Of a DNA stretch of 64,000 bases, positions 1-64,000 are shown piece after piece (positions within the stretch are counted from its first letter, which is position 1; each line of letters begins with the position of its first letter). The stretch comes from Umbilicaria muhlenbergii (taxonomy: Eukaryota > Ascomycota > Lecanoromycetes > Umbilicariales > Umbilicariaceae). The notes beneath the pieces were generated by a model, which ran no database searches, was not told where the DNA came from, and was given only the letters and a program-made list of their open reading frames with translations. The position numbers were made by a program, and so were the translations under genes. The stretch covers positions 2,287,435 through 2,351,434 of the forward strand of contig KK106981.1 in assembly GCA_000611775.1 (NCBI GenBank), given 5' to 3'.

Positions 1-913
1 CTCAATCTGTTGAATAAAGATAATAAAGATTTCATTGCCTTTCTTCATATTTAATGTGAACAGTGCTGCATTAATCATTTTGATATTAACTGCATGTGAG
101 GGGTTATTACTCTTTAATGTGAAAGCTGATTCAGGATCTGCTTTTGTGATGAATTTCTTCAAGATCTGATGAAGTTTCAGTGATTCAAGTTCAGTTGTTT
201 AATTTGTTTGTTCATTTGATGTTCAGTTCTTCAGTGTTGTTCATTTATTTGGTTGTTCATTCAGTTGTTCAGTTTGTTCATTTAATGGGAAAACCACTAC
301 CTGGTTCACAGGGTTGATTAAAATTCAGGTGTGATTCATTCAAGAGAGTTTCAATATAATGTTAAGATATTTTATGTCTACAATCATCATGAGAGTGAGT
401 CACTGAGAATAACTGCAGACCTTCATGATTGAATAAATTATGTGTGTAACTCATCTCACTGTCTTCTTCTGGAAATCATGTAGAGTTCAGGGCTTTGACA
501 GTGACATTGTCTCAATTTCAGATCATTCAATCAGAGTCTTTGCCAGGTTAATATTAATAAATGCATATTCAGTTGACTCAGTATCAAGTAGAGCCTTGAC
601 TTGTAACTTAACCTCATTCAGTGTGAGCTTGCAATTCACTTTGAATGATGTTCAGGTGAACAGCATGTCTTCATTAATCATCAGTGCTGATATTACAAGG
701 GGATTATCATCAATTCTTATCATGACTTTGATAGGGGAACGCCTTTTCCTAAACCTGATTCAGAATCAGAATCAGAATCAGAGTTGAATATGATTCATTG
801 CATGCATTTTAATGTTGAAGTCTCTTTCTTTTTGTCTTTGTTTGAATAATTTAAGGCAAGGTGCCTCTGTTTATTGCATTTAAAACAACATTCTTCCTTT
901 ATCTGTTGTTTAT

Positions 914-2026
914 CAGCAATTTAGCAAGTTAGCTCTGAGTTAGTTTTTAGCACTTTGAGTGCTCTGAGCTTCTGATCTCATGTCTCAGCTAACAGCCGCT
1001 CTTAGCACTCTTTGAGCGCTTTGAGCTCAACCTTAAATCTTGAGCGGAACATCAAAATTTTGTGATAAAAAAATAATTATTAAAACAATTGTTTAAACAA
1101 GTACACACGCAGTGTTATAATAACAGTAAAATTTATAATAAGTAAACTTTTGCTAAAATTCACTTTTCTGCAATAAGAAATCATGATTTGTTGAGTCTGA
1201 AAGCACTGTATAAGTGTTGAGTTCTGACTATTTAAAGAACTTCAAGATTTTCGCCTCTTAAAAATTTACACACTTTAATAACTTTTGCACCTCAACAGAT
1301 ATGAAGAAACTTTTAATGCATAATTTATAAAAAACAGTATTTTTTATTAATGTTAAATTAAAAGTTTCTTTATAACTGCTGTTGTTGTTAAGTTATATTT
1401 AATTCAAGTTTTTGATAGTGAAAAATCTTTCAAAAAAAGTCTCATACTTTGAATAACTATTGCGCTTTTATACTTATGATATAACTTTCAGTTTATAAGT
1501 TGTAGAGAAGAAGCTATTAAACAGTTTTATAACTTAAAGTTTTTTTATAACTGTTGTTGTTAAAAAGTTACATTGATTTTAAACTTTCAGTGGCGAAAAT
1601 CACAACATTAATGAACAGACTTTTAATGACTTTTTGAATAACTCAACAACAAAAACACATAAAAAGAAACTTTGTATAAGAAAACTCTTAAACAGCTTAT
1701 TCTCTACAACTTATAAACTGAAAGTTATATTATAAGTATAAAAGCGAAATAGTTATTAAATATACTAATATATTTATAATTAGTTAAAAGTTTTTTAATT
1801 CATAACTATTGCAAATTAAAACTTATGAAGAAATCTTTAGTTTGTAAGTGTACAGAATAAAGAGATTTAAAACTTTTCAATAAAAAGTTTCTTATTATTC
1901 ATAAAGGTATAATAATTATTTAAAGTGTAAAATTTGTATGAGCTCATTTACTGCTCAGAGAGTGCTCTGAGTGCATAAAGTACTATTAACTAAAATCTTA
2001 TTTTTGAGCGGGCTGCCAAGTTGTGG
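914..2026. mobile_element. MITE S copy 1 (non-autonomous, hAT-like)
   Basis: This is the longest of three copies (others at 25315-26172 and 59567-60451). It begins CAGCAATTTAGCAAG and its other end, read in reverse complement, begins CCACAACTTGGCAG, an imperfect terminal inverted repeat. It has no coding capacity. The interior holds inverted arms, for example the block near 1470-1500 and its reverse complement near 1703-1748; copy 2 lacks the stretch between such arms. It keeps CpG sites (GAGCGGGCTGCC, AGCCGCTC) better than the elements around it, so it is younger than its hosts. No target duplication is visible here: the two flanks come from different places in the A family. Confidence 0.75.
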
Positions 2027-2035
2027 ATGTCAGTT

Positions 2036-2640
2036 CACAGGGTTGATTAAAATTCAGGTGTGATTCATTCAAGAGAGTTTTAATATAATGCTGAGATCTT
2101 TCATGTCTACAATCATCATGAGGGTGAGTCATTAAGAATGATCACAAACCTTCATGATTGAATAAATCACATGTGTAACTCATCTCACTGTTTTCTTCTG
2201 AAAATCATGTAGAGTTCAGAGCTTTGACAATAATACTGTCTTAATTTCAGATCATTCAATCAGAGTCTTTGTCAAGTTAGCATTAATGAATGCATATTCA
2301 GTTGACTCAGTATCAAGTAAGACCTTGACTCATAGCTTGACCTCATTCAGAGTGAGCTTGCAATTCACTTTGAATAATGTTCAGATGAACAGAATGTCTT
2401 CATTAATCATTAATATTAATATCACAAGAGGATTATCATTGATCTTTATTATGACTTTAATAGAGGAACGCCTTTTCCTGAATCAAGTTCAAAATTAAAA
2501 TCAGAATTAAATATAATTCATTATACACATCTTGATGCTGAAGTCTTCTTCTTTTTATTCTTATTTAAATAACTTAAGGCAAGGTGCTTCTGTTCATTGT
2601 ATTTAAAATAACATTTTTTCTTCATCTGTTGTTCTTTGGC
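2036..2640. repeat. Direct repeat of 296-905, flanking MITE S1
   Basis: The block after MITE S1 restarts at a point already read at about 296-905. Both blocks match the single stretch 43175-43790 of element C. The two copies differ from each other by scattered transitions in both directions, so they were separate before or during mutation. This is the footprint of recombination or unequal exchange, not of a simple MITE insertion. Confidence 0.75.
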
Positions 2641-3905
2641 GGCGTCTGAGTGAGGTGTTCAGTTCAGTGTTCAGAGAGCTGACTTAGTGATCATTCAAGT
2701 AGTTGATTTTAAGATCTCAATAGAACATTCAGTCCTTGTATGAGTTTAACTTGTAAAAGAGGACATCTGATTCATTTTGATAATCTTCTTTGCATCAAGC
2801 AGTCATAAAGTCTGATTGATTCACTGACAGCACTTGATGAGTTCATAAAGATCTTCAGGTCTGTCATCATCAGTGTTTAATTATCATTGAATGATGTTAT
2901 TCACCTTGTTTAGAAGTTCTCCTATTCAGTATAAATCAAGAAACTCATTCAGTTCAGTAACATATTATTAAAAATCAGCTCAGAAGAATGAGAAGTCTTT
3001 AAATCCTTAATAAAGTTTACAGAATTTATCAGTGACAGTATGTTTTCAATCTGAGTCTTCATAGATTCAAGTCAAATATTTAAGCAGTTTAATGATATTT
3101 AAATAAGCTGTTCAGGATGCTGAATTCATTCAAGACTTTATGTGCTTAATAAAGTCACCCTCAACTCTTGTCTTCATGTATATTATTTTCATCTGTTCAG
3201 TGAGGTATTATTCATTCATTATTAATAAGTAGTTTTTGATCTTCACTACTCATTCATTGTACTTTAAATGATTGCTGAAGAACATCAGCAGATCAGAGAG
3301 CTTTAATAATTTAAAGTTGAATGATTCTTCAACTGTGAGTTGAGGAAAATCAGGTCAGGGGGTGCTTGTGAAGGTGATTATAATTCATTGTTTAAAATAT
3401 GTTATCACATTAATTTATTCAACAACTTTTTTCTTCAGTTTCTTGTTCTTATCCTTCATTCTTTCATAGTCTGCTTGTAGTTCTTCATGTACCTTTATAA
3501 TGATGTTGATTTCATTCAAAGACTGCTCATGATCAGTGATTAATTGTTGAAGAGCAGTCATTGCTTCAGAGGAATGTTCTTGTAAAAGATTAATCAAGAT
3601 CTCTGCAGTTGAGGTGATCAAAATCTGATCAATCAAGTTTTCATTCAAGGTGAATTGTTCATCATTCACAGAAGTCAACAAAGACTCTTTAATTCATGAG
3701 TAAACTTCATTATCAGCTTCTTTAATCATCATGATTGATTTCTGATTCTGATTCTGATTCTGATTCTGATTCAATTTCAATCTAATTCAGAATTCATTCA
3801 GGATGCCTTGCAGCAGGAGATAAAAAAAGAGATTAAAATAATATTAAAATTATACAAATTATGAATTAATGCATGTGTTTTAACAGCTGACATTTAGCTA
3901 CAGAG

Positions 3906-4195
3906 TGTAAGAGGCAGGGTGTATGACAGAGTGTCATAATGATGTTTAAACAAAGTGTCATAAGCAATATAGTCATGATGAGGTCAATGCAATGATTATA
4001 CATCTTTTATTTGATGACAAAACTGATCACTGAAGAAGCAGGTTTCTGCACCTTCTTGTGAAGAGTTTTCACTTGATGTCAAGGCACTAGGCGCTGAGTC
4101 ATCATATTTAAGTTATAATGTTGTATCATAGTGTCATACTATAGTGTCATATCATAGTGTCATACTGTCATATTATATATATGATGACTCTGACA
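3906..4195 (-). repeat. Left (3') LTR of element B
   Basis: 290 bp, same length as 12164-12453. It contains a short tandem array near 4119-4170 built on CATAGTGTCATAC, repeated about four times, just before the end of the LTR. Confidence 0.85.
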
Positions 4196-4683
4196 CAGCA
4201 TTCTCCTTCTCATGATGTTATCCTTGATGTCAATTGACTTTAAATCTGTCATTATAGACATCATCATGATGGCCTGATAAGTGATTGATCATGTAGGGTG
4301 AGAATGTGAAACTGTGCTAAAATAAGGCTGATCACATGCCTTGCTTAATTGTGATGATATCACACCTGGCAGTAAGTTCCTTTTAACATAAACATTGAAA
4401 TTAAAATGTTTACTGTAAGTTCAAAACACTCTTCCCTTGTGTTTCTTCTTCATCATTTCTCTTATGACATGTTATCATACTTCTCATGACTTTTTCACAA
4501 CTTGTTGAGTGACCTGATGATTTCATGATGTCATCCTCATTGCAGAGGTGTTCACCTCATGAAGGGAACATCATGAAGCTTGCAGCTCATGATTTAACAT
4601 TCTTGTGATGTCATACTTCCTGTCATACATCATATGAATACTAACATGATATATAAACAATCAATAATTGAACTCTTGAACTT

Positions 4684-5712
4684 ATGATCATGAACAACAG
4701 TGAAGACTCATCTTCATCAGGGAAGCCTGTTGATCTTCAGGCTCAATGTGATGAGGAGAGCTCTGAATCAGAGTTAATGAATAAAACTGTGATGAGCAAC
4801 ACCTTCAGAAAGAGACAGGGAAACAAAGTAATAAAATTGATTATTCAGCACCTGAAGAGGGTTAAATGTTTATTTTTAAGTGATGTCTTCAGCAGCAGTT
4901 TCTGCTCTGTGTGATATCATGATGATACCTCACTGCCGGCGCGCGTGCAGTAGGGTCATCATCATGAGTGTGTGATTTAAGAGAACCTCAGTCACATGCT
5001 GTCAAGTACTGCTCACTGTGATTCTTGCAGAAGAGCTGAAGTTGATCAGTGCTTCATGTTGCAGATTAATTCAGCCTGCACTTATTGCACATCACTCTGC
5101 AACCCTCATGATCAATGCATGATGAAGTCTCTGATCATCACTGCCTCAGTCTTTAAAAGCTCTGATGTTGTTGTTCTGCATGCACATGCTTATGATGACA
5201 GGAGAAGTGACAGCACACTGTAAATTTATTTTTTTTAATCCTCTTTCATTTTGTTTCATTTAATATGAATATGATGTACTTGTCATACTTATGACATTTT
5301 GTCATATTATCATACATACAACATTTTGTCATACTGCTGTGCTGTTGCACTGTTGTACTATTAATATATTAATTGTTGTATAACATTTGACAGCTGATCA
5401 ATTCCTCATGCTGCTGCTTCTTATCAGTCATTATTAACATTCTTCATGCTCTCTGCAGTTGTTTCTTAACATGAGTTTCTTGACTTCCTTGAGGTCAAAG
5501 TGTGTTAATTCAGTAATCCTGAGAAGTTAATTCAAGCTCTTGCTGTCTTGTTGAAGAGCACTGCTCACGCTCTTCACATCCTCAACACTCATCAATCTCA
5601 TCATCATCAAGAGTACATCAAACTCTGTGAGCATCAGCATGTTGAGGAGATGAGGTCAGAGACTTCATTAAACAATAATGAAGAAGAGTTTAAGACAGCA
5701 GAAGACAAGTAA
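4684..5712 (+). pseudogene. Antisense accessory reading frames of element B (Cys-rich)
   Basis: Lies between pol and the 3' LTR of B, on the strand opposite to pol. Three open stretches can be seen: 4684-4914 (76 codons, Ser/Glu-rich start, basic patch FRKRQGNK), 4996-5223 (75 codons, with cysteines spaced C-x2-C-x7-C-x8-C-x2-C, like a small zinc-binding cluster) and about 5530-5712 (His/Glu-rich, helical). A TATATAAAC stretch near 4650 stands about 30 bp before the first ATG, where a promoter could be. CpG survives at about 4936-4950. Function unknown. It may be one spliced accessory gene or unrelated open frames. The position matches the antisense frames of E, F and G, but no sequence match to those was seen. 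Treated as a fossil part. Confidence 0.45.
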
Positions 5713-7903
5713 ATAAATGAGAATGACTTAATGCAGCACTGATGAAAAGTTAAGTGCAAGATGTTGATCTTGAGTTCATTTTAATCTTTAAACCTGAAAT
5801 GAAATGCTTCTGTGCTTAAGTGTTCTCTGCAATGTGACATGTTTGTGATAATGTAATTTATGTAATAATTTTATTAAAGATCCTGTTATAACATCATAAC
5901 ATCATAGCCCCTGTCATACTTGTCATAAGGCACAGGCTTTATCATAGAAGATCAGGTTAACAAAGTTGACAAAGTTTTCAATTCTTAAGACTCATGACTT
6001 TTGTGACAGCTTCTCAATCAACCTTGAAGAGTTACATTTTAAGACTCATGACTTTTGCAATAGCTTTTTAATCAACCTTAAAGGGTCACATCTTAAGGCT
6101 CATGACTTTTGCAACAGCTTCTCAATCAATCTTGAAGAGTCACATCTTAAGACTCACTTGAATTTCTGTTTGTCAGGGTTGTCAGCATGAAATTTTCACA
6201 TTTTTGTCTTTACATTGTGAATGAAGTGTGTTGATTCTCATGTGTCATCTCACACTTGATCTGTTGACTTTCATTTGATGAGGTATTGAAGCCTGTCATC
6301 ATGAATGCAGTTATCCACAATTGCCTCAACTTCTCACTCATCATCTCAGTTGAGTAGTAGGTTTTTTCCTGTCAATGCAGAGAACACATGACGTGTGCCT
6401 TGAAATGACTTCAATAAAGTGATGTTGAATACATTATAGATGTTTCAATCCTCTGAGAGATCAAGTTCATATGATGACTGACTTATCACACATCATATCA
6501 TGAATGAGTTGAGTTTTTTTCAATGCAGTTTCTTCATCTGCTTGTTCATTGACACATTCTTTTCATTGATCAGTACTAAATCACCTTCTTTGAATGTTAT
6601 CTCTGTTCAGTGCTGATTATAATAGTTTGCATACATCTCATTAACCTGTCATAGCTGCTTCTGAGTTGTTGCAATTTAATCTTGAAGCTGCTGTGCATCT
6701 GCATAAGATCTTATTTGTTCATGTGAGTGCTGTATAAACAGCTTACTTAGGCTCATCTGAGGGTCTCACTTTAAGTTAAGCTGAAAGGGGCTCTTTCTCA
6801 TAACAGCATGTATGAAGTTGTTGTATGAGAACTTCATGCAGAGTAAAAGCTTCACTCAGTCCTCTTGCTGCTCATTAATGAATATGTGTAAATACATCTT
6901 CAGAGACTGATTCTGCCTCTCTGTTTGATCATCAGTTTGCAGGTGAAAAGCTGTTGACATGTTATGATGACATCACATGTGAAAGCAGAAGCTGATTTAC
7001 TGCTCTGATGTAAACAGCTTGTCTCTGTCTGTGATTAAGACTTTTAACATGTCATGATGCTTGACTATGTCCTGAATAAACACTTCAATGAAGTCAGCAA
7101 CTGACATTATCTTCTGTATTAAAATATAGTGAGTCATTTTGATCAACTTATCAACTATGACAAGGATTGAATCTCATGTCATACTTTCATACATGCTGCT
7201 CAGTGGCAAATCTGTAATGAAGTTCATTGTCATCATATGTCATGACTCAGTTGAGACTGATAATGAGTTTAATAACCTGTATAATTTGTGATGAGCTGAC
7301 TTCACCTTTTGACATTCAACATAATCATGACAGTAACATCATACATCTCTGACAGCATCAGGTCAGTCATAAGATCACTGCATTAATTTTATAATTCTTG
7401 ACTTTCTGAAATGACCTGCAAAGACATCATCATGAAATCAACTGATCACTGCATTGCAGAGGGCAGGGTTCTGTGAAATGTAAATCTTATCATTGTAATA
7501 TATGACATCCTCAATTTCCTCTCAACATTTCATTACATCAGGGAGTATTATCATCATATTTGTCATTTCTGACTCAGTTAAGTTGTTTTTATCCTCAAGA
7601 GGGGTAGTTAATCCCTGTTGTACTCATCATATCAAATCATCTTTCAACTGTTTGATATGAATTGTATGTTCAAGTTGTTTAATAAACATTCTTATATAAG
7701 CTGTTATCTCCTCACCTAGAGGTGAGTGAGTAGACATGAGCTGAAGCACTTCAACAGTGTCAGCAGAAGAAGTGTTATCCTTAATTTAAAGATTAATAAA
7801 AACATGACTTGCATCATCATTTATAATTACAGTGCTTGCTGTGTTATTTTTAATTGAGTGCTGCTCAGGTTCTGCATACTCAAGTTTTCTCATTCAGTCA
7901 CAG

Positions 7904-8257
7904 CTTGCTTCTTGAGCATATAAGTCACAGACTGCTGATGTTTCAGTCATATCATCAACTTCAGTATTCATTGTATTAATATGTTCATCATGACTTGCTT
8001 CTTAAGCATGTAGGTCATGGACTGCTGATGTTTCAGTCATGTCATCAGCTTCAGCATACATCATACTGACATATTCATCATGACTTGCTTTTCAAGTATG
8101 TAGGTCACAGACTGCTGATGTTTCAGTCATATCATCAGCTTCAATATTTGTTGTATTAATATATTCATCACAGCTTGCTTCTTGAGCATGTAAATCATAA
8201 ACTGCTGATGTTTCAGTCATGTCATCAGCTTCAGTATTCATCATACTGATATTATTC
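7904..8257 (-). repeat. Four 90-bp in-frame tandem repeats in pol of element B
   Basis: Units start near 7904, 7994, 8084 and 8174, exactly 90 bp apart, so each adds 30 residues. On the minus strand each unit carries motifs like EADDMTETSAV and the block repeats between RNase H and integrase. The reading frame is kept by all four units. They differ from each other by transitions only. Confidence 0.8.
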
Positions 8258-11200
8258 ATTGTGACAGGTATGACATTCTTTTGTTGTAATCTCTGTCATA
8301 CTGAGCGTCTTGACTGCAATGTCATTGCAGCAAGTGTGTATAATTTCTTCTGCACTGACTTATAATCCTTGCTTCCTAAATGAAAGGACTGTCACATTAT
8401 TTCAGCAGCAGTTGAGGTACTGACAGCCTTCAGCAGTTTATAATCAGGTCATCTTGACAGACTGTCAGCAGAGTTCTTCTTGTTCTCTTGATATGTGACC
8501 TTAAAGTTGTACTCAGTGAGCTTTTCAGCTCACTTGAGCTGCCTTCATGTGAGGTTTGAGGTAGTCATAAATCAAACAAGATTTGCATGATCAGTCAATA
8601 TGATGATCAGGTGCTTAGCGCCTTAACAGTAATGTCATTAATGATGCATGATTTTCATGATGACAAGGAGCTCTTGCTCATCTGTATCATATTAAGTCTT
8701 GATATTTAGCAGCTTCTTGCTGTAATAAGTAATTAATAATCAGTGCAATTAATCATCAACCTTGAAGCATTGTGTCAAGATTTTATCAATTGTGAATTCA
8801 GAGGCGTCTGTTTTAACTCTCATGAGTTTGTTTTCATTGAAATAATGTAGTAATGAAGCACTCATGAAGATCTTCTTCAGAGCATTAAATGCTTTCAATG
8901 TGACTCCTGAGAGTGAAAAAGAAGCAGGTACAATGTTTTCTTATTATAACTTTTCTTCAACTTGCAGATTACATGCTGAATACTTTGTATTAAATCTTCA
9001 CAATGAGGTCAGGCTGTTCTGCTTTCTTTTAATAACAGTCTGTTGAGACTGAAGAGGAGAGAATGATGTATTCTCAGTCTTCTTTTTATTCTTTCCTGTT
9101 TTCAGGAGATTTAACAGTGATGCTGTAATTCATGAATAATCTCTTATAAACCTTCAGAAGAAGTTGATGAAGCTTAAAAAAACCTGCAATTCATGAATGT
9201 TCTCTGAGAGTAGTCATTTTTTAACAGCGTGAATCCTTTCTGAACTCATATGTATGCCTTTGATATTGATCTTAAACCTCAGGAAGTTCACTTTCATTGC
9301 ATTAAAAAAGCATTTGCTGATCTTAAGATGAAGATTGTGACATTATAATGCAATTAATACTTGTCATACATGCTTCTCATGTTCAGATTCATCTTTGCTG
9401 AAGATCAAGATATCATCTAGATAAATCATGTAAATTATATCAAGGAACTCATCAAGAGTCTTATCAATGAATGCTTGAAACATAGCAGGAGCATTCATGA
9501 GACTGAAAAACATGATAAAATATTTGAACAGGCTGAATCATGTTCAAAATGCTGTTTTTCACTCATCTTCACCCTTGATTCATATTCAATTATATGCATT
9601 CTTGCAGTTCAGCTTAGTGAACTTCTTAGTTCCTTGAAGATGATTCAACATGTCTGATATAAGTGATAATGAGTAGTGATTTTTAATGATAATATCATTC
9701 AAGCACTTATAGTTAATGACTAGTCATAGACTGTCATCTGATTTCAGTACAAACATAACAGGTGAAGCTGCAGGTAATATTAATTTACAAATTATGCCTG
9801 TCTTCATAACATCATTTAAATATACCTTCAGTACATCAAGCTCAGTTGAAGACATCAAGTATAACTTTCTGAATGAAGGTTGCTGCTCTGATTTCAAGTC
9901 AATGACATGATTATGTGAACCTCTCTCAGATAAAGACTGCTTCTCAGCTGCCTGAAATATGTCTGTGAAGTCATGATATTCAGGAGGTAGACTGTCATAA
10001 ACATTATCATACTTTTTGTCATATCACAATGAGTTCATCTGTAGGGTATATTTTTTCATATCAGCGCTGCTTAAAATATGTCTGTGAAGTCATGATATTC
10101 AGGAGGTAAACTGTCATAGATATTGTTGTATTCTTTGTCATATCACAATGAGTTCATCTGTAGGGTATATTTTTACATATCAGACACTAGGTCCGCAGAC
10201 ACTATAAAGCAGTCAGTAATGATGAGGTTGTTCATATGTAGAACATTCTTCAATATCTTCTTTTCATCAGTGATGAATATACAGCATGCAGTAATATGTT
10301 TTGACTTTCTTCATAAAAATTTACTCATATCATAGTAGTGATTTGAGTTTACATGAACTAGAAATGATAACTTGAGGATAAAAGAAGCTGATGTGTTGTC
10401 TTGTGTGATAAAAAAACAATTGTTATAGTGATAAGATTAATCATCAGTGTCATATGCTGTAATCATCAGTACAACAGACTCTGATAACTTAATCACATTA
10501 CCTCATGCATTACCTTGAGCCTCATAGGATTCAGTCAGTAGAGACAGCTTATTGACAACATCTCATGTGATTATATTGCCCTGACTGCTGTTGTCAATAA
10601 TATATGAATATTGTGAAGATTTGCTCATCATATCACTCATTGTTGTTATGTGCAGTTTCACCTCTAGTTGCCCTGATATCAGACGTGAGATATCATCAAT
10701 AATTAATAATGAAGCAAACTGAAGGTGATCTGTGAGTCATTTATTCACATTAACTGTGATGAAGACGGCTGTAAATCATTCAGTCATACAATCATTTATT
10801 CAGTGATTGATGACTTCACATTTAATGCAGAGACCTGCTGACCTTCATGCATTCATTTCATTTCTTGAGATGAAGTCTTCTTGTCAGCATGAGGAGGTTG
10901 TGAATGTTCATGTCATCATTATAGTTGCTCTCTCAGTGATTAATATATGATTGAGATTCTGACTCTGATTGCAGTCACTTTCATGATAGAAACCTCATGA
11001 GTTGTTTTCTCTTTCACAGCTGAATTGAGTGAATTGAGTGCAGATTGTTTATTATTCAGTGAGGGATTCTTTTCTGTCATAATATGACGTTTGTGTCATA
11101 CTTTTGTTGTTGTTGTCAGTTTTGCTTTAATGATCCTTTTTGATGTCTGAGCGGCTTCAGAACAGTTCATGATTAATGATGATGTTAAGATGTGCTGAAA

Positions 11201-12163: not shown

Positions 12164-12453
12164 TGTAAAAAGCAGAGTGTATGACAGAGTGTTGTAGTGA
12201 TGTTTGAACAGAATGTCATAAACAATATAGTCATGATGAGATCAATGCAATGATTATACATCTTTTATTCAGTGATAAAACTGATCACTCAGAAAGCAGG
12301 TTTCTGCATCTTCTTGTGAAGAGTTTTCACTTGATGTCAAGGCGCTAGACGCTGAGTCATCATATTTAAGTTATAATGTCATACCATAGTGTCATACTAT
12401 AGTGTCATATCATAGTGTCATACTGTCATACTATATATATGATGACCCTGACA
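12164..12453 (-). repeat. Right (5') LTR of element B
   Basis: 290 bp, same length as the left LTR, with the same terminal bases and the same CATAGTGTCATAC array (about 12385-12430). It is followed by CAGAG, the second copy of the target duplication. Confidence 0.85.
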
Positions 12454-14315: not shown

Positions 14316-14399
14316 TTAGCTCTCCTCACAAGGTTTTCATTCTTGAAAATCAAAAGCCCCTTATGCTTTACTTCAGTGACAGAAAGATTATTTAATTCT

Positions 14400-35597: not shown

Positions 35598-35599
35598 TA

Positions 35600-36820: not shown

Positions 36821-36829
36821 AAATAACAA

Positions 36830-52250: not shown

Positions 52251-52996
52251 TACAGTGACTGTTGAGATGAGATGAGATCAGATTTTTAGTCCCTGTCTCA
52301 TCCCAGTCTCATCTCATCTCAGTGATGAATTTTCAGTTCAGTCCTGGTCCCGTTGACTGAACGGGACGGGAATAGTCCCGTTGTCCCAGCACTATTGATA
52401 TGTCATGATGACAATAACCTAAGCTTAACCTAAAGAGGCTTGATACAGTATCACATTAAGTTAGATGTCATCTAAGGAGTCATCAGTTTACATTTCATCA
52501 TAGATCATTACATTGAATCATTAGAATTATTAATTTGAATCTCAACATCATGTAACAATCAGTTCACTGACTCTCAGTCACATTTTGAAAGCCGTTTTTT
52601 GAGGCTGTTCTTTGAGGCCGTTGTTGAAGCCGTTTTGGAAGCTGTTCTTTGAGGCCGTCGTTGAGGCTGTTTTGGAAGCTGTTTTTTGAGGCCGTCGTTG
52701 AAGCCGTTTTGGAAGCTGTTTTTCAAGGCCGTCGTTGAAGCCGTTTTGAAAGCTGTTTTTTGAGGCCGTCATTGAAGCTGTTTTGAAAGCCGTTTTTCCC
52801 TTTTCCGTGTCTCAAAACCACTGACAGTCATATAAGAAGTCATGTGACTGGGATCCTGCTGAGATCACAGGACAGGATGAGACAGGACTCCTGTCTTAGT
52901 CCTGAGGAACAGGACTACTGCTTGATCTCATATCTCATCCCGTCTCATCCCGTCCCTTCGTCCCGGACCGGGACTCCCGTCCCGGCGGTCACCCTA
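52251..52996. mobile_element. Young hAT-like MITE inside element F
   Basis: 746 bp with short inverted ends (TACAGTGACTG at the left; the right end in reverse complement reads TAGGGTGACCG) and a perfect 8-bp duplication AGCAAAGT (52243-52250, 52997-53004). The empty site is seen in element G near 60770. An 8-bp duplication and these ends fit the hAT superfamily. It is rich in CpG, CCGG and GGGAC, unlike the element it sits in, so it was inserted after most of the mutation. GGGAC/GTCCC-rich inverted segments lie near both ends (52296-52395, 52850-52990). No transposase; it needs an autonomous relative elsewhere. Confidence 0.85.
52584..52796. repeat. 37-bp minisatellite inside the hAT-like MITE
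   Basis: Between five and six units of 37 bp, built on GAGGCCGTCGTTGAAGCCG followed by TTTTGGAAGCTG and a T-run. Units differ by a few bases and keep their CpG sites. The open frame on the minus strand (52578-52772) is a by-product of the repeat. Confidence 0.85.
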
Positions 52997-54319
52997 AGCA
53001 AAGTAAATGAACATCAAGGAGTCAAAAAGACAGTGAAATGACTCACATGAATATACTACTTCTTATAGTTGAGGAAGAAAGTTGAAGAAATTATTCAGAA
53101 ATGCAATACCTGCTGAAAGAATAAAGCAGAACATCATAAGTCATATGAATTATTAAAGTCATCATCAACATCATCACAATCATGATTGAGCATCACACTA
53201 AATTTCATGATAAAACTGCCAAAATCAAAAGAACCCCTGATGAAAGTATTGTATGATGCAATACTGATTATAACAGACTGACTCATGAAGTATGAATATT
53301 TCTTGTCATATAAGAAGTCATCATCAGCAGAAAAATTAACATACACATTCTTAAGAGTTATAATCATCAATCATGAGTTATCAGAAGAAATAATTTCAGA
53401 CAGAGATAAACTCTTCATCTTTAAGTTCTGAAAATCATTAGTGAATTAGTTGAGAATTCATCACAAGCTGTTCACTGCATATTATCCTCAAATGAACAGA
53501 CAGACTGAACACTTAAATCAGATGTTGAAACAGTACTTATGCTGTTATGTCAATCATCAACAAATCAATTGAGTAGAACTCTTATCAATAACTCAGTTAA
53601 TTTACAATACTGCATCAACAGAGTTGACAGAAGTGTCATCATTTTATGTTAATTACAGGTTCAACTCATCAATGAATGAAGTGAGAAGACTAATAACAAT
53701 AACACAAAAAGCAAAAATACAAGTGAATCACTTAAAGAACCTTCATCAGGAACTTCAATGAAACATAAAATTTACCTCAGAAAGATCAGCAGTATATCAT
53801 AATAAGAAAAGAAATAAAAGATCTACTCTTGAAGAGAGAGATAAAGTATACCTCCTGCATCACAACATCAAGATGAAGTGATCAAGCAACAAGTTGAATC
53901 ACAAGAAGTTGAGATCATTTCACATTTTAAAGAAGAAAGAAAGTGTCAACTATGAATTTAAACTTTCATCAGTCATGTGAATACACTCAGTATTTCATGT
54001 ATCTCTACTTGAATCAGCAGATCTGAAAACATCATTATAAGATAATTCACCTGAGATCAACCCTGAGAGTCAAGATGCTGAATTTGAAGTAAAGAAGATT
54101 CTAAATCAACAAGAAATAAATAATGAGTCTCATTATCTAATTAAATGAAAAGGTTATGATATGACAGGAAACACATGAGAATCAGAGGAGAACCTTACTC
54201 ATTATTCAGTAAAATTACATCAATTTCATCAGAGGAACCTGCTGCCAGTCAGTCATTAAAAATAATGAAGAATTCAAAGAAGTTAAAAAGAGAATTAATA
54301 ATTTAACTCTGAGTCAGTT

Positions 54320-54660
54320 CCTTCTGCTTCAGTTCTTCAATGTTTTAAAGCTCAGTATGAATCAGATTCATCTGTCACTTCTTAAGAAGAGTAATTTGTT
54401 TGTGAAGCCTCTCTTTCTTCATCTTCAACTCTCACTTTTTAGCAGAAATGTCTGTCTTTTCTTTTCATAAATGAAGGAGTTTCTCTCTGACATGATTCAG
54501 CTCAGCTGAAGAAATTACAAGGTCACAAGCAACACCTGACTGAACATAAAAACTGCAACAGTCAGATTTTAAAGACATGAAACACTCACAATCACTGAAG
54601 ACACAGTGATGACAAGGTTGCATGACAAGATTTCTGAAGTTGATGATATGATCAGTCAAG
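54320..54660 (-). pseudogene. Antisense accessory reading frame of element F
   Basis: On the minus strand, opposite to pol. The open stretch 54659-54465 carries HHCVFSDCECF, SDCCSFYVQSGVACDLV and ISSAELNHVREKL; beyond it a charged helical stretch (KMKKERLHKQITLLKK) follows. It matches 14400-14800 of element E motif by motif and has the helical half in common with G. The order of a Cys-rich head then a coiled coil suggests a small binding protein. Its role is unknown. Fossil, broken. Confidence 0.65.
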
Positions 54661-54759
54661 TGAAAGTGATGAATTAAGGATTAAGCAATCTTTCTGTCAC
54701 TGAAGTAAGACATGAGAGGCTTTGATTTTCAAGGATGAAAACCTTGTGAGAGGAGCTAG

Positions 54760-55155
54760 TGTTATGACTTAATCAGAACAGTACTTAAAAGTATGCACTT
54801 GCAGTGAACAGCTGATACTGATCAAAGTGATTGAGGTGAGTGAGAGCTCAAACATCTTGATCACCTTGATCAGGGTGATTGAGCTGTTCAGAGTGATTAA
54901 GGATTTAATCATCATGATCACCTTGATCATATGAGTCTTTTAGAGTTTATATAATCACAGGTAGATTCATAGTTAGAAGTTAATGCTCAACTCATGTATC
55001 AAATGCAATCTCTTAAGTTTATGATTACTAGTTCCCTCACTTGGTCTTAATCTTAAGATCATATAATTCATTGAATCTTGTTTAGTTCATTGAATCATAC
55101 CTGTAGTTCATTGAATGACAGTATTACTTCAGTCATTATGACATCACCTGTTACA
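54760..55155 (+). repeat. Right (3') LTR of element F
   Basis: 396 bp, same length as the left LTR; preceded by a purine-rich GTGAGAGGAG tract. Confidence 0.85.
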
Positions 55156-55541
55156 TTGTCACACGTGACTTATTAAAATTGTAATCAGAAGAGACATTAT
55201 TCCTTTAATTATTCACAACTTATGAAGAACTTAAATTTAAATAAAACCTCAATTGCAGCTGTTTCAACATCAAAAAATGAAAACACTTCAGTGAAGACTT
55301 CATGCTGCTGAAGTGTTGAACAAAAGTAACCTCAGAGCTCAGTTTAATTGTTGATGAACAAGTTCTTCACAATGATGATGTCATACTCATGCAAGCCTTA
55401 TTGAACACAGGAGCTGAAGTCAATGTGATTTCACAACACTTCATTATTGAACATCAATTGACTCATATGAAGAGCTTATTGCCTTAACTTTAATTCTTGA
55501 ATGATCAGAAGGCTTACTGCTTCAGTGTTTATCATGTATAT

Positions 55542-55955
55542 TGTTATGACTCCCGCACTATAGTATTAACAAAGTATGCAGTGTGAGTGTATACATGATA
55601 CTGCTCACCTTGCTCATCTGTTGAGCATGCTGAGCATGAAGTGTTACATCATGTTGCTCACCTTGCTCATCATGATGAGCATGATGAGCATGCTGAGCAC
55701 ATGAGTCTCTTATAATTTATATAATCACAGGTAGATTCATAGTTAAGAGTTGATGCTTAACTCATGTATTAAATGCAGTCTTTTAAAATTATGACTACTA
55801 GTTCCCTCACTTGATCTTAACCTTAGGATTGTTGTATAATCATGTAGTTCATTGAACTTGATCTAGTTCATTGAACTTGATCTAGTTCATTGAACTGTAC
55901 CTGTAGTTCATTGAATGATAATATTACTTCAGTCATTATGACATCACCTGTTACA
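55542..55955 (+). repeat. Left (5') LTR of element G
   Basis: 414 bp. Its first half is a cluster of GCTCACCTTGCTCA and its inverted form TGAGCATGCTGAGCA; a TATATAATC box follows near 55719-55727. It carries a 19-bp tandem duplication (TAGTTCATTGAACTTGATC) near 55864-55902 that the right LTR lacks. Confidence 0.85.
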
Positions 55956-58900
55956 CTTTGAGCATCAACTTACAGGGTATCAGTCATGCAATGAATTAAC
56001 TCATCAGTCTCATGATGTCTGCTTTCATTGAGAGAGGCTGATCAGTTGCAGGATAACCCTTTAACAAAGTAATCTGAGTTAAGATCCTGTTGCTGAATAA
56101 GTTTCTTGATGAGAGAAGAATGTTAAACCTGTTTTTCACTCAGCTTGACACTTACTTATGATTCAACAACTCTCTGTTCATATCAGAAGTGAAGAAAGTG
56201 TTGTTCATATTCTCATACTTAAAGTCAGATGCTTTGAACTGATTTAAACTTATCCTCAGAGACTATCTCAACAATGAGAAGAAAGATCATGATGATTCAA
56301 CTAATGAGATATTTCATGACTTGAAGGAATTCAAGAAGTAGATAAGAATAATGTTCAGCACAATTAATGAAGAGAGAACAGTGAAGTGAGAGATTTATAA
56401 TATTCAGCAGAAAGAAGCAACTGCTATATATGTTGTAAACTTTCAAAGACTCACCTTGCATACAAATTAAGATGATATTGCTTTGACAGCGCAATATTAT
56501 AAGAGATTGAAGAACATGGTAAAAGATGAGATCTCAAGAGTGAAACACTCTGTCATGCTCTCAGAAATAATCAAATGATTGATCATCATTGACAACTGAG
56601 CTTATGAATGAAGCTTAAAGAAGAGTCATAAGATTCTCATATCTTGAAGGACTGAAAAGAATCATGAATGATAATACAATAACAAACTTTACTACAGACC
56701 TCAACTCATGAAAATTGATATAATATTCTGAAAAAACCATTTTCAACAAAAGAACAGCTCAGGCAAGAAAGAGAAAACTCACAGAAACAACTGTTATAAC
56801 TGTGAAAAACTGAGGCACTTTGCCTGTGACTGTCAAGTCTCAGGAAAGACTGTTCAACTCAGAAAAACATACATCATCATGCAAGAAGTGAAGAGCAGGA
56901 AAGAACATAACATTATATCTTAAACAACATATTATGATGATACTTGTCAGATACATCAAAGTGATAAAAATGACTCTGAATGATTCCTGCATCAACAGAA
57001 AGAAATAAAAGATTATGTCATGACTTCTCAAGCAAGCCTGATTACAGTTTTAAAGAAACAGCAAAGCTGACATGATCAATTCAGTCAAGAGGGAAATTAT
57101 GTTGACAGTGATGACATCATGCTTTCATTCAGTGATGAAGAAGACTTCATGAAAGTAACAGACTTCAAAGATTCAGAAGAGTTCATGAAAAAGAATGATG
57201 ACATCTGAGCATTCATTCATGAAGAACAGTGATTGAAAACTTATGAAGAAGTGTTCAATCTTATGAAGAAGTCTCTTGAGAATGATGAAGAACATGTGAG
57301 CCTGTTGCAAGAATACATCCTGTGAATAATTAAGAACACATTCACTCAGAAGAGACAAGTTAAAGACATAAATTATCAAGATATAATCAAGAAAACTTCA
57401 TCAAAAGGTTTCAAGTTCATCACTGAAGAAGGATATGTTACTCTTAATGAAGCTCACATCTCAAGGAAGTTGAGGATGAAAGTGTGAAAGCTCTGAAGTG
57501 AATACTTGAAACTGAATTCAATATGACATTCAGACAAGAAAGTCAAATCTGAAGACTTTAAGTATGTAAAGGAGAACTTAAAGTTTCTTTCTTTTAATTC
57601 AAAAAATTAAAAGGCCCTTCAGGTCAGAGGTTCTCAGAGATGCTTATTTTAAAGTCTTTAGAAGACATGATTGCTAAAGAAATCACTGTCACAGCAGATG
57701 TGAATAACTTTCATGTTTAAGTTAAAGTGAAAAGTCACTCAGCCTGACTGTTAATAAACAGTGACTGTACAGGAAACTTTATAAACTCATGATTCATCAT
57801 GAAAAAAGAAATTAAAGTTCAGAAGAAGCAAAATCCTTACTTGCTTTAAAAGTTTAATGAAACCCTTATGAAACACAACAATGAACTCATGAATGAAGAA
57901 ATGATCTCAATATCTGTTCAGTTGAGTTGACACTGAGAAAAGATCAGTTTCAACATCATGAAGCAGTCAGGAAGTGATATAGTTTTAAACATATTTTAAC
58001 TCTGAAAAATCAATTCAATGATTGATTAAGCTGAGAATGAGATATACTTCATGAAGAGTAATATTCTCATGAAGTTATATTCAGTCCTGAAATCACCTGA
58101 AGGAGTGAAAGTCTTCATTATGACAACAGAAGAGATGCACAAGGAGTTAAAAATTCTGATGCAAAGATACTGTGAATTAAATGAGTTGATGATGATTGAG
58201 ACCTTATTATTAAGTTATCTATCCCTAAAGAATACAAAGACTTTGAAGAATTATTTACAGCAGTAAAGAAACAGGACATCTTGCTGAAACATTAAAAATG
58301 AGATCATGAAATCAAGATCATGAAAGGTTGTAAATTAATGAAACAACTTATCTACTCATTGTCACCTCAGAAGTTAAATGCATTGTGAGAATATTTAAAA
58401 AAGAACTTATGAAAAGAATTCATTTAAAAATCTCAGTCTTCAGCAGGATATTTAATATTGTTTGTCTTAAAATCTGATGAATCATTGAGGTTGTGTGTTG
58501 ACTATAGAGCACTGAACAACATAATAATAAAAAACAGTTACTCACTGCTGCTTGTGTCAAAACTGCAGGACAGATTTCAGAAAGTATAATGATTCATGAA
58601 GTTCAACATTTCAGAAGCATTCAACCAGATATGAATAAAAGAAGGTGATGAATGAAAGACAGTGTTTTGAATGCACTCAGAGTTATATGAGTCCTTGATA
58701 ATGCTGTTTGAATTAACCAATGCCTCCGTGACTTTTCAGGCTTTCATCAACAACATTTTATGATAATATTTAAATCAGTTTGTGATCATCTACCTTGATG
58801 ACATACTGATGTACTCAAAAATAAAAGAGCAGCACATCAAACATGCTCAGAAGATTTTATAAACATTGAAGAACACTGATCTGTGAGTTAAGTCTGAGAA

Positions 58901-59566
58901 AAGTTTTTTTCATGTCAAAGAAGTTCAGTTCCTTGAATTCATTGTCATACTGAAAGGCTTATGAATGAACTCAAAAAAAATTAATTTTATGATTGAATGA
59001 TCAGTTCTGATAAATGTTAAGGAAGTACAATTCTTCTTAAACTTTGCAAACTTCTATAAGAAGTTTATCAAGAAATATTTTAAAATCACAGCACCTTTAA
59101 CAGAATTGATGAAGAAAGACTGAAAGTTCATTTAATTTACTGAAGCACAGAGATTCTTTGAAGAGCTGAAGAAGCACTTCACATCACAATTAATTCTCAT
59201 GAGTTTCAACCCTGAGAAACTTATTACACTTGAGACAGACACATCAAACAGAGTTATAAAAGCATGCATTAATCAATCAGATGATAAAAGATGTCTGTGA
59301 TCAATAATTTACTACTCATGAAAGCTTTTAGGTGCTGAACAGAGTTATAAGATATATGACAAGAAGCTGTTAACTATTGTTGATGCATTCAAGCAATGAT
59401 GTGTATATCTTGAAGGATCAAAGCATGAGGTTTAAATGTATTCAAATCATAAGAATCTGTTATACTTTATGATGATGAAGGTCTTAAATCAAAGACAGGT
59501 TCATTAATCAGAAGAATTGTCACAATATAACTTTAAAATTCATTATCAAAAGGGATCAGAGAACAT

Positions 59567-60451
59567 CAGCAATTTAGCAAGTTAACTCTGAGTTAGTTTT
59601 TAGCACTTTGAGCGCTCTGAGCTTCTGATCTCATGTCTCAGCTAACAGCCGCTCTTAGCACCCTTTGAGCGCTTTGAGCTCAACCTTAAATCTTGAGCGG
59701 AACATCAAAATTTTGTGATAAAAAAACAGTTATTAAAACAATTGTTTAAACAAGTACACACACAGTGTTATAATAACAGTAAAACTTATAATAAGTAAAC
59801 TTTTGCTAAAATTCACTTTTCTGCAATAAAAAATCATGATTTGTTGAGTCTGAAAGCACTGTATAAGTGTTGAGTTCTGAATATTTAAAGAACTTCAAGA
59901 TTCTCATCACTTAAAAATTTACACACTTTAATAACTTTTGCAACTCAACAGATATGAAGAAACTTTCAATGCATAAATTATAAAAAACAGTATTATCTAT
60001 TAATGTTAAATTAAAAGTTTCTTCATAACTGCTATTGTTGTTAAGTTATATTTAATTCAAGTTAAGTTATATTTAATTCAAGTTTTCAACAGCGAAAAAT
60101 CTTTCAAAAAAAGTCACATACTTTGAATAACTATTGCGCTTTTATACTTATAATATAACTTTCAGTCTATAAGTTGTAGAGAAGAAGCTATTAAACAGTT
60201 CTATAACTTAAAGTTTTTTTATAACTGTTGTTGTTAAAAAGTTACATTGATTTCAAACTTTCAGTGACGAAAATCACAACATTAATAAACAGACTTTTAA
60301 TAACTTTTTGAATAACTCAACAACAACAACACATAAAAAGAAACTTTGTATAAAAAATTTGTATGAGCTCATTTACTGCTCAGAGAGTGCTCTGAGCGCA
60401 TAAAGTACTATTAACTAAAACCTTATTTTTGAGCGGGCTGCCAAGTTGCAG
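59567..60451. mobile_element. MITE S copy 3, inserted in element G
   Basis: 885 bp, same ends as copies 1 and 2, with the right part of the interior shortened. The uninterrupted site is seen in element F near 51913. The flanking 8-mers are GAGAACAT and ATGAACAT, an imperfect 8-bp duplication that would fit a hAT-type element. This is the only copy of the three with a simple insertion context. Confidence 0.8.
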
Positions 60452-62059
60452 ATGAACATTAAAGTGAATGCTTTCAGCAGATGAGCTGATTATCTGTAAA
60501 AGAAATCAATCATGAATCAAGTCATCCTCTGAGAGAATGAGCAAGGTAGGATAATCTATAATCAAGAAGTCAACTTTACAATAAAAGTTGAAGACAACAT
60601 TTTCAAGAAACAAGTCTGAAAAGTGTTGAAGAATGACAAACTAGCACAACAGGTTCTTCAGAATATCAATGATCATGAAGACTTTAAAAAGTGAGAAGGC
60701 CTTTTACTCTTTCAAGGTTTAATCTATATCTCAGTCAGCTTGAGAGAAGCACTGATAGAAGAAAGTCATTTCAGCAGAATGAATGATCATCAGGAAATCA
60801 ATAAAACAGTAAAATGACTCATGAGAATGTACTATTTCTCATGCATGAAGAAAAAGATAAAAGAGATTGTTCAGAAATGTGACACATGCTGAAAAAATAA
60901 AGCTGAGTGACATAAATCATATGAGTTGTTGAAGTCACCACCAACATCATCATGATCATGATCAAGCATTGTATTGAACTTCATAGTGAAGCTATCACAG
61001 TCAAAGGAATCACTGATAAAAGTGTTATACAACATGATACTCATAATAACAGATCAACTTATGAAGTACAGATACTTTATATCTTATAAGAAGTCATCAT
61101 CAGCAGAAGAATTAACATACACATTTTTAAGAATCATAGCAGTCAATCATGAGCTGCTGAAAAAAATAATCTCAGACAAAGATAAACTCTTCACTTTCAA
61201 GTTTTGAAAATCATTAGTGAATCAACTAGGGATTCATCATAAGCTGTTCACAGCATATCATCCTCAGATGAATGAACAGACTGAATGATTAAATTAAACA
61301 TTAAAACAGTACTTGCACTGCTATGTTAATTATCAATAAATCAATTGAGTAGAACTCTTACTAATAGCTTAATTAACTTATAACACAATGACAATGAAAT
61401 TCATAAAGGTGTCATCATTTTACATCAACTACAAATTCAACTCATCTATGAATGAAGTGAGAGGGCTGAAAGTCATAACATAGAAAGTGAAAATATGAGT
61501 GAATCATCTGAAGAACCTTCATAAGGAACTATAACAGAATATAAAATTTATCTCAGAAAAGTCAACAGTATATTATAATAAGAAAAGAGATAAAGAACTT
61601 ACTCTTGAAGAGAGAAGTAAAATATACCTTTTATGATGCAACATCAAGACAACATGATCAAGCAATAAATTAAATCACAAGAAGTTAAGACCTTTTCAGA
61701 TTGTGAAGAAAAAAGAAAGTGTCAACTATGAACTTGAACTTTCATCATTCATGTGAATACACTCAGTTATTCATATATCTCTACTCAAATCAGCAGATCT
61801 GAAAACATCATTATAAATGAATTCATCAGAAATTAACCTGAAGAGTTAAGATGCTGAGTTTAAGATAAAGGAAATCCTAAATCAACAGGAAGTTGATGAT
61901 GAGCTTTATTACTTAATCAAGTGAAAAGAGTATGACACAGCAGGAAACACATGAGAATCAGAAGAAAATCTTACTCATTATGCAGCAAAATTACATCAGT
62001 TCTGATAATGAAACCTGAACCTCAGAGGTCATTCAACACTGAGAAGTTGAAAAGTTCAG

Positions 62060-62400
62060 AAGTAGTGATTGAAGTTGAAGTCTTCACTTGCTTGCTCTTC
62101 TTCACCTTCAACTCTTCAATGTTTATGAACTCATGAGAGATAAAGTCTTTTTAACAACATTGCAACAGTCTTTTCTGTTTATGCAAATGAACTAATTTAG
62201 TTGACACCTCAGCAATTATTTCCTTCACAGCAGAAGTCTTTTTCTTCAGGAAAGTCAATTCAGCTTTCATCTTCTCTCAGTCAACACTATTAAAAGAAAG
62301 GTCACAGGACTTTTCAGTCTGAATATAAATAACACACTTTTTAAAATCATCACTCACATGATAATCTTTTATGTCATCAACACATCATCTACATGATCAC
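62060..62400 (-). pseudogene. Antisense accessory reading frame of element G
   Basis: On the minus strand, opposite to pol, between the chromodomain and the right LTR. Motifs seen are FLKKKTSAVKEIIAEV, STKLVHLHKQKRLLQ and FINIEELKVKK. The KQ(K)xLLxx...(F/L)xNIEEL ending is shared with the antisense frames of E and F, whereas the Cys-rich head is not evident here. Same place in the element, same strand relation. Fossil, broken. Confidence 0.55.
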
Positions 62401-62536
62401 ATGATGAAAGGAGTGAGGTTGAGCCTGTGAAGAAGATTATGACAACATTGAGAAGAGTTCAGTTTCTTTTGCACTCAAGAAGAAGGCATGAAGATGTTTA
62501 AATTTTCAAGAATAAAAGTTTTAAGAAGAAAGCTAA

Positions 62537-62931
62537 TGTTATGACTCCTGCATTATAATACTAACAAAGTATGCAGTGTGAGTGTATACATGATACTGCT
62601 CACCTTGCTCACCTGTTGAGCATGTTGAGCATAAAGTGTTACATCATGTTGCTCACCTTGCTCATCATAATGAGCATGATGAGCATGCTGAGCACATGAG
62701 TCTCCTATAGTTTATATAATCACAGGTAAATTCATAGTTAGAAGCTCATGCTCAACTCATGTATTAAATGCAATCTCTTAAAATTACAACTACTAGTTCC
62801 CTCACTTGGTTTTAACCTTAGGATCATTATATGATCATGTAGTTTATTAAACCTGATCTAGTTCATTGAACTGTACTTATAGTTCATTGAATGATAATAT
62901 TACTTCAGTCATTATGACATCACCTGTTACA
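62537..62931 (+). repeat. Right (3') LTR of element G
   Basis: 395 bp, pairs with 55542-55955 except for the missing 19-bp duplication. Confidence 0.85.
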
Positions 62932-64000
62932 TATATTATCAGCTTACTGACAGTTGAGGATAATTTCATGAATGTGAACATGTGTTTTACACTTTAAATA
63001 AGTCAAGATTACCCCTTATCCTTGAACTTCTCACATTGAAGACTGAGCATGTGTGAATCAACTGTGAAATGAAGACGTGACGCTTCAATATTAAAGAGCA
63101 GTTTATCAAGTTACAGTCATCTGATGAATTCACAAGAAAGATTTAAAATCACTCTGCTGTTTATGCTGTGATATGAGTCAATCTGAGTGATGACGCTGCA
63201 TCAGAGGTACGCATACAAAGCGCTGATATAACATATTAAGCTTTACCTCAGAAATATGTTGATTATGCAGATGTATTTTCAACAGAGAATGCTGACCTTC
63301 TTTCACCTCATAAGATCAGTGATCATGCAATTGATTTAAATGACATAAATTCATCTTATGATCCTTTGTATAATCTCTTCAATACTGAGTTAAAGGTGCT
63401 ATGAGAATACTTGAATGACACTTTAATGAAAAGTTAAATACATCATTTCATGAGCTCTGCAGGAGCACTCATTCTTTTTATTTTAAAAAAAGATGAAGAG
63501 CTGCACTTATATATTAATTATTAAAAGTTGAATAAGATGATCATCAAGAACAGGCACCTGTTATCTTTTATAAATGAAATGTTGAATCAACTTAGTGAAG
63601 TCAAGTTATTTATGAAGCTAAATTTGAAGAACACTTATCATTGTATTTATATAAAGAAGGGTGATGAGTGAAAGATGATGTTTCACATGTGTTACAGTCA
63701 CTTTGAGTATATGATCATGTCTTTTGAATTGATCAACACTTCAGTTATGTTTCAGGCTTATATTAATCAAGCATTAACAAGGCTTGTGAATGTCTTTTAT
63801 GTTGTCTATTTAGATGACATCCTTATATACTCAGAATCACTGATGCAACACTGAGAGCACATTAAGCAGGTGTTAAATCAACTCTGTTAATTTCAACTTT
63901 ATATGAACCTTAAGAAGTGTAAATTCTTCATTATTAAGATGAAATTTCTAGAGTTTATCATCACAACTGACAGCGTAGTAATGAATTCATGATGAGTAAA

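Follow-up and report, generated by a model that had tools for sequence, protein, structure and literature searches.

Repeat-induced point mutation (RIP) of the Neurospora type depends on RID and changes CpA to TpA. Other preferences have been described in fungi. CpG followed by CpA is the reported target in the MATE elements of Aspergillus nidulans and in Tuber melanosporum, and TpCpG is the reported target in Microbotryum, a basidiomycete in which RID was not found (PMC2621366, PMC4352252). A survey of 1,239 fungi published in 2025 presents the CpA preference as common to RIP-like defences (PMC12543289). Here we describe a 64,000-nucleotide stretch of the ascomycete Umbilicaria muhlenbergii (the window; G000:C1:2287435-2351434 in a genome of 34,788,950 bases and seven contigs), most of which consists of repeats: long terminal repeat (LTR) pairs and related elements, Ty3-type elements, an element of the long interspersed nuclear element (LINE) type, and unclassified repeats. 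On balance we favour the view that a single RIP-like process, directed by an enzyme with changed recognition, hypermutated these repeats from C to T.

Base composition and sequence context of the mutations

Observed-to-expected (o/e) ratios of dinucleotides were computed over both strands. A sequence-only reading of the window had described CpG as nearly gone and CpA as enriched, which the ratios bear out: in 1-20990 and 23300-64000, respectively, CpG o/e is 0.08 and 0.10, CpA 1.47 and 1.40, and TpA 0.66 and 0.64, against 0.86, 1.06 and 0.85 in the control 21150-23280. For 24841-25080, where it had counted by hand about 24 CA, 16 CT, 2 CC and no CG, the counts over both strands are 42 CA, 39 CT, 4 CC and no CG. 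CpC, which it had called rare, is indeed reduced (0.47 and 0.49; control 0.92) and is not equally rare in host genes, four gene loci (L009-L012) being normal in CpC (0.90-0.99) and CpG (0.71-0.93).

However, CC depletion is mostly loss of CCA. With both mutated blocks pooled and the four gene loci as control, CCA falls to 92 occurrences (o/e 0.09; control 1.17), CCC to 173 (0.36; control 0.78) and CCG to an o/e of 0.14, whereas CCT is spared (1135, 1.09; control 0.97). Only 12 CGA are left (0.01; control 1.08). CTA stands at 687 (0.30; control 0.57) and CAA at 2433 (1.07; control 1.33), and CAG survives in large numbers, as the sequence-only reading had noticed (2390, 2.29; control 1.18). The complement of TGG is CCA, and Trp codons therefore become TGA stops; TGA was correctly named as the usual form (TGA 5413, TAG 688, TGG 88). 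Dinucleotide indices can thus blur a multi-base rule. The usual RIP test (TpA/ApT of at least 0.89 with (CpA+TpG)/(ApC+GpT) of at most 1.03) is passed by 1 of 64 1-kb segments and 2 of 128 500-bp segments, as the same reading had expected. The standard test is blind here because the damage is nearly opposite to that of RIP. The one positive 1-kb segment, 1001-2000, overlaps an AT-rich short repeat at 910-2030.

Copies of five mutated stretches were searched for in the genome, with 227-410 candidates each, 38-40 of them scored (40 of 255 for E1, 40 of 227 for E2, 40 of 266 for E6 and 38 of 247 for 29900-34900; elements are listed in Table 1). All five stretches are repeated, at least in part. 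Context was then measured in four sets of copies. The E2 set comprises 30 copies, spread over all seven contigs, of a 2.2-kb part of the element (the 40 scored matches came with 30 loci). The E1 set has 13 copies spanning 1.9 kb (that of the window and 12 others), the set for the LINE-type E5 has nine (that of the window and eight others), and E6 is represented by one pair. All 30 E2 copies are mutated, with CpG o/e of 0.02-0.15. Pairwise transitions and transversions per site are 0.0988 and 0.00231 in E1, 0.1284 and 0.00797 in E2, 0.0715 and 0.00745 in E5, and 0.1116 and 0.00803 in E6. C:G-to-T:A transitions dominate the differences between copies, their direction being deduced from context rather than observed.

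The probability of change, p(C->T), was estimated by comparing C/T-differing with C/C-shared site pairs, which needs no guess at the ancestor. For the base 3' of C (+1), p is.573 before G,.252 before C,.150 before T and.118 before A in E2, and.602,.201,.095 and.068 in E1; the order G>C>T>A was recovered in 300 of 300 bootstraps in each family, and recurs in the LINE-type E5 and in the E6 pair (.429,.344,.168,.102 in the latter). CpA is the lowest +1 context in E1, E2, E5 and the E6 pair, and the CpA preference of RIP is therefore absent. The sequence-only reading had proposed a RIP-like process that prefers another base 3' of C; the +1 order agrees with this, but a second determinant had been missed.

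The base at +2 has an effect as strong as that at +1, in the order A>T>C,G, with some rare contexts excepted. When A at +2 is invariant, p is.677 for CC,.407 for CT and.197 for CA in E2 (.730,.366 and.170 in E1). With invariant T the corresponding values are.236,.105 and.100 (.140,.069 and.055 in E1), and with invariant G they are.076 for CT and.021 for CA (.060 and.002 in E1). CGA is almost eliminated, with 0 C against 1753 T in E2 and 1 C against 366 T in E1, while p is.59 (E2) and.66 (E1) for CGT and.47 and.30 for CGC. Values in E5 are lower, in much the same order (CGA.818, CCA.485, CTA.264, CAA.109, CAT.100, CAG.039). A logistic fit gives large effects at +1 and +2, a smaller preference for A/T at +3, a modest effect at -1 (C up, G down), a lower value for C at -3 in E1, and small effects at the remaining positions. 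When log hazards at +1 and +2 are simply added, a model with seven parameters reaches R2 of 0.974 over 12 contexts and 0.906 over 13, with CGA left out.

The target would therefore be written as the C of 5'-C-[G>>C>T>A]-[A>>T>C,G]-[A/T>C/G]-3', in which CGA would be the best context, followed by other CG sites and CCA, and CAG would be nearly spared. Strong coupling between a C and a G two bases apart (CNG; r of.53 in 57 column pairs and of.66 in 13) was considered as a sign of symmetric attack on both strands and rejected; the +2 rule accounts for most of it, since sites with invariant A at +2 also mutate fast. We regard an artefact of base composition, codon bias or alignment as scarcely credible, given that the pairwise estimator, several families, raw counts (CGA 12 against CAG 2390) and gene controls agree, and that the four gene loci lack CGA and CCA depletion (o/e 1.08 and 1.17).

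Comparisons within the window point the same way. Transitions account for 25 of 26, 40 of 40, 57 of 72 and 30 of 32 differences in four LTR pairs. Scored per pair as C/T-differing over shared C, the 3' bases rank C>T>A in pair A (C 6/2, T 8/28, A 2/50) and pair B (C 7/6, T 9/49, A 8/55), and T>C>A in pair D (T 14/42, C 2/9, A 8/65), where CpT exceeds CpC. Changes that are mainly CpA to TpA, named in the sequence-only reading as a result that would refute it, are thus missing from pairs A, B and D, and only pair C tends in that direction. Pooled, the four pairs follow the two-base rule, with shared-C and differing counts of 0/4 for CCA, 17/12 for CCT, 28/20 for CTA, 41/9 for CTT, 37/0 for CTC, 37/7 for CTG, 29/17 for CAA, 84/11 for CAT, 35/2 for CAC and 37/0 for CAG. 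Cross-comparisons of E2, E3 and E4 agree (CCA 0/9, 1/10 and 0/6; CAG 136/7, 110/9 and 64/6). These LTR data also bear on editing of retrotransposon cDNA by a single-strand DNA cytidine deaminase of the AID/APOBEC type. Such editing would suit the predominance of retroelements and of transitions, but LTRs differ only by changes made after insertion, both strands are affected without strand runs, and the specificity lies mainly 3' of C. AID/APOBEC enzymes read 5' bases, and we consider this explanation very improbable.

Strand choice, rate and candidate processes

Old CpG sites were recognised by the presence of CA and TG at one position. The 100 such sites in E2 carry TG 1494 times, CA 1187, TA 229 and CG 82, and the 67 sites in E1 carry TG 379 times, CA 421, TA 46 and CG 22; CG survival is underestimated in these counts, since sites were picked for showing both TG and CA. 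At a former CpG, as a rule, just one of the two strands loses its C, since once TG or CA has formed the remaining C is followed by A, the least favourable context. Which strand is hit tends to follow the flanking bases in E2, with TG shares of.84 for AcgA (16 sites),.45 for TcgA (21) and.24 for TcgC (2), although there are exceptions such as GcgA (.40, 3 sites). Shares in E1 are.78 for AcgA (4 sites) and.33 for TcgT (10).

No strand runs were detected at adjacent old CpGs: the same strand was hit in 439 of 875 cases in E1, 1655 of 3260 in E2 and 66 of 120 in E5, all within 1.6 standard deviations (sd) of shuffled data. For E2 sites within 60 bp of each other, a same-strand fraction of.476 compares with.492 (sd.008), and no distance bin has a correlation outside the range -.022 to.010. 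At other C's the same-strand correlation is near zero beyond 30 bp, with small departures at 1-30 bp. The mutations therefore probably built up in a long series of weak rounds or one site at a time, without a strand-wise sweep, although many superposed rounds could hide strand runs. It is tentatively conceivable that a mutator serving genome defence, with a true 3' recognition motif of several bases, C-S-A-W, acted on either strand, one site at a time and without strand sweeps. If so, its mechanism would differ from that of Neurospora RIP and CpA-based indices would not see it, so that any use of these indices would under-call RIP-like defence.

E1 transversions of 0.00231 per site between pairs correspond to ~0.0012 per copy, compared with hazards of ~1.3 for CCA and ~0.002 for CAG. 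The excess over per-copy transversions is thus ~1100-fold for CCA and ~2-fold for CAG in E1, ~280-fold and ~5-fold in E2, and ~180-fold and ~11-fold in E5. In H3K9me3 heterochromatin of Neurospora crassa the mitotic transition/transversion ratio is 0.93, although the authors note that methylation is rare in this species (PMC10234303). Together, the CCA excess and this ratio argue for a directed process.

These rates bear on our main rival explanation, a vegetative one coupled to methylation: DIM-2 (de novo) and DNMT5 (CpG maintenance) would methylate repeats with a context preference of their own, and methylated C's would turn to T gradually during mitosis, in each copy separately and regardless of strand. 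DIM-2-like and DNMT5-like genes are present, strand runs are absent, Dim2 of Zymoseptoria tritici raises mitotic C-to-T change, though at CA (PMC8016269), and fungal CpG mutation has been ascribed to deamination of 5-methylcytosine (PMC4352252). However, the CCA excess in all three families is high for passive decay, the N. crassa ratio is 0.93, and the +2 order holds at CpG too, which is unexpected for maintenance methylation specific to CpG. We therefore find this explanation possible but doubtful. Deamination of 5-methylcytosine at CpG alone would raise only CpG, and modestly, whereas non-CpG C's mutate here in the order of their 3' context.

Classical-type RIP at non-CpG sites combined with separate CpG deamination seems unlikely. 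CpG does stand far above other contexts, and A. nidulans MATE elements are reported to show CpG followed by CpA (PMC2621366). Yet the non-CpG order is itself C>T>A rather than CpA-first, the same +2 order appears at CG (CGA almost gone, CGT.59/.66, CGC.47/.30), and a single additive model describes well the contexts supplied to it, 12 and 13 in number. The sequence-only reading had offered CpG deamination plus another context as an alternative; it is less well supported than a single enzyme-like motif, since sites inside and outside CpG obey one and the same +2 order. Across copies, those with more residual CpG have fewer other mutations (E2, Spearman -0.60, p 0.0005), a trend that is not significant in E1 (-0.41, p 0.17). 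This agrees with one shared process; two processes that scale with age fit too.

Several observations weigh against a single RIP-like process. LTR pair C (81% identical) has CpA highest (A 19/38, T 15/39, C 1/3). Where A at +2 is derived from G, p is.692 for CC,.445 for CT and.285 for CA in E2, and.911 for CC and.309 for CA in E1; these are similar to, or somewhat above, the values for invariant A (CA.285 against.197 in E2 and.309 against.170 in E1; CC.911 against.730 in E1), and some residual coupling may exist beyond the context rule. CGG in E5 (.400) is out of line on few sites, and CCA in the E6 pair is.000 on very few. The CCA excess of ~1100-fold in E1 is nearer 280-fold in E2 and 180-fold in E5, where some transversions may predate insertion. 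In N. crassa, 91.9% of RIP clusters are reported to be strand-exclusive (PMC7296669), whereas no sign of one-strand clusters is seen here.

An inter-chromosomal duplication adds a further objection. Already mutated DNA at 22937-42500 is duplicated at G000:C3:1932893-1952738, and 32787-39964 and 39972-42500, ~9.7 kb, are 100% identical to the second copy; no efficient round of mutation would therefore have followed the duplication. The stretch 22937-25935 is 99.0% identical, with nine mismatches, all from 25447 on and seven of them transitions, and the stretch between this one and the identical parts differs, partly in opposite orientation. The duplication could be of very recent origin or could have arisen in the assembly as an artefact. 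Its left edge (22937) lies inside a 17-bp tandem, CGACGGCTCAACGTCGC (22925-22958), near the sharp edge of a spared island at ~23,000.

For a single process of the RIP kind speak the mutation spectrum, the two-base rule in several unrelated families, the fit of one multiplicative motif, and the sparing of the genes sampled: repeats are depleted, with five mutated stretches searched, whereas the four gene loci and the core of the spared island are normal. Our best call is a RIP-like variant with altered multi-base 3' specificity. We do not file it as proven RIP, because a CpA preference and strand-wise clusters were looked for and not found. In this process a C5-methyltransferase of the set encoded by the genome would carry out or guide deamination, most likely a RID-like enzyme with diverged target recognition, and the process would be homology-directed.

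Elements of the window and methyltransferase genes

Table 1. Coordinates of repeats, mutated blocks and the spared island in the window.
Feature	Position	Strand	Remarks
Left block, mutated repeat territory	1-20750		CpG o/e 0.08, CpC 0.47 in 1-20990
E1, Ty3-type LTR retrotransposon, mutated	3901-12456	-	LTRs ~3901-4198 and 12159-12456; repeat D9
E3, LTR element, E2 relative, inverted relative to E2	13970-20385	-	Right edge approximate; repeats D11, I1-I12
Spared island	20751-23000		From 250-bp counts of CCA and CGA
Right block, mutated repeat territory	23001-64000		CpG o/e 0.10, CpC 0.49 in 23300-64000
E6, dispersed repeat, class unknown	27508-29880		+1 order as elsewhere in one copy pair
Dispersed repeat	29900-34900		62 matches; copies mostly 77-86% identical
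E5, LINE-type element, endonuclease and reverse transcriptase	36806-39180	+	PF14529, PF00078; same mutation rule
E2, Ty3-type LTR retrotransposon, mutated	47911-55155	+	LTRs 47911-48306 and 54760-55155; repeats D10, D18
E4, LTR element, E2 relative	55539-62931	+	Repeats D7, D8, D13-D18

The minus strand of E1 matches the Pfam families RVT_1, RNaseH, integrase H2C2 and Tf2-1 SH3, and the plus strand of E2 matches RVT_1, RNaseH and integrase H2C2. E6 has no Pfam match in any of six frames. The possibility that 29,900-33,000 is single-copy yet mutated DNA was rejected, as a dedicated search finds copies. Within E2, a minisatellite at 52583-52797 retains many CpGs (CpG o/e 0.62 in 52001-53000), and may therefore postdate the mutations or have been rebuilt through slippage. 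An AT-rich short repeat occurs at 910-2030, 25311-26175 and 59563-60454, with copies 92-99% identical apart from one stretch at 67%.

The observation had been entered for 1-64000. Mutated territory covers less than this range: ~21,500-23,000 is spared and 20,750-21,500 is intermediate: CCA is present from ~20,750, whereas CGA reaches a gene-like density only at ~21,500-23,000. The island core, 21350-22877 (bases 201-1728 of the query 21150-23280), matches only itself in the genome; the first 200 and last 403 bases of the query have copies elsewhere. The sole open reading frame of at least 150 amino acids in the window, 21896-22363, lies inside the island and has no Pfam match up to an E value of 1.

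The sequence-only reading had suggested comparison with RID and Dim-2 homologues; putative RID-like, DIM-2-like and DNMT5-like genes are present. PF00145 matches at four places in the genome. The match at C6:814627 is DIM-2-like, its BAH match falling just under the cut-off (30.3 against 30.8 bits); BAH is limited to the DIM-2/Masc2 class (PMC4352252). At C4:3522938, PF00145 occurs without a BAH match and PCQ is seen, along with one in-frame TAA within the match, perhaps in an intron, so that the integrity of this gene is not proven. We tentatively take it to be RID-like from its domain make-up. The DNMT5-like gene at C5:2349218 matches PDB 7r76 (E 8.2e-76) and has an SNF2 domain in the same stretch; 7r76, whose record reads 'DNA repair protein Rad8', is presumably Cryptococcus Dnmt5. 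Such a set of methyltransferases would fit a filamentous ascomycete. Elsewhere in the genome, an exon of isocitrate lyase has 1dqu as its best match, and no 5.8S rRNA was found among 39 scored candidates of 1116.

The fourth match, at C1:6527376 (L012, G000:C1:6525876-6529178), is a decayed second DNMT5-like copy, 80% identical to L011 over 939 bp. A polarised test of this duplicate gives 63 C-to-T against 48 T-to-C changes over both strands, the former at 18 of 99 CpG, 18 of 92 CpC, 14 of 135 CpA and 13 of 114 CpT; there is no hypermutation in L012, only a mild lean in the same +1 order. If any of these genes encodes the enzyme, the RID-like, DIM-2-like and DNMT5-like genes are the candidates, and the sharpness of the motif makes the question of the responsible enzyme testable.

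Comparison with described systems

We found no published account of a C-S-A or +2-base RIP rule in a search outside which preprints and most subscription papers lay. The genome looks like a counter-example to the generality of the CpA preference in the 2025 survey, since its repeats are heavily mutated and missed by the usual index test; the k-mer screen of that survey, being motif-blind, might have caught such a genome (PMC12543289).

Judged by the available portions of the sources, each of the other systems shares some features with these repeats. As in A. nidulans MATE elements and T. melanosporum, CpG is the foremost target and the host is an ascomycete carrying a RID-family gene, here a putative one, but the second target here is CpC(A) rather than CpA, and those portions mention no two-base 3' rule (PMC2621366, PMC4352252). 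Microbotryum mutation is likewise based on CpG with a three-base preference; there, however, the extra base is 5' of C, whereas in these repeats it lies on the 3' side, and C's outside CpG are affected as well. Z. tritici encodes RID, DIM-2 and DNMT5, counterparts of the putative genes here, and shows repeat mutation linked to methyltransferases, yet its Dim2-dependent mitotic C-to-T change is at CA sites, the worst context here (PMC8016269). Verticillium dahliae has three methyltransferases and context-dependent loss of C in repeats, but CHG is depleted there and CG is not, whereas here CG is depleted and CAG and CTG persist (PMC8091789).

The resemblance to Neurospora RIP lies in C-to-T hypermutation of dispersed repeats, the sparing of genes and the presence of a putative RID-like gene. 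The differences lie in how sites are chosen: CpA is the worst +1 context here and CpG and CpCpA are the best, a +2 rule applies, strand runs are absent, and RIP indices are negative.

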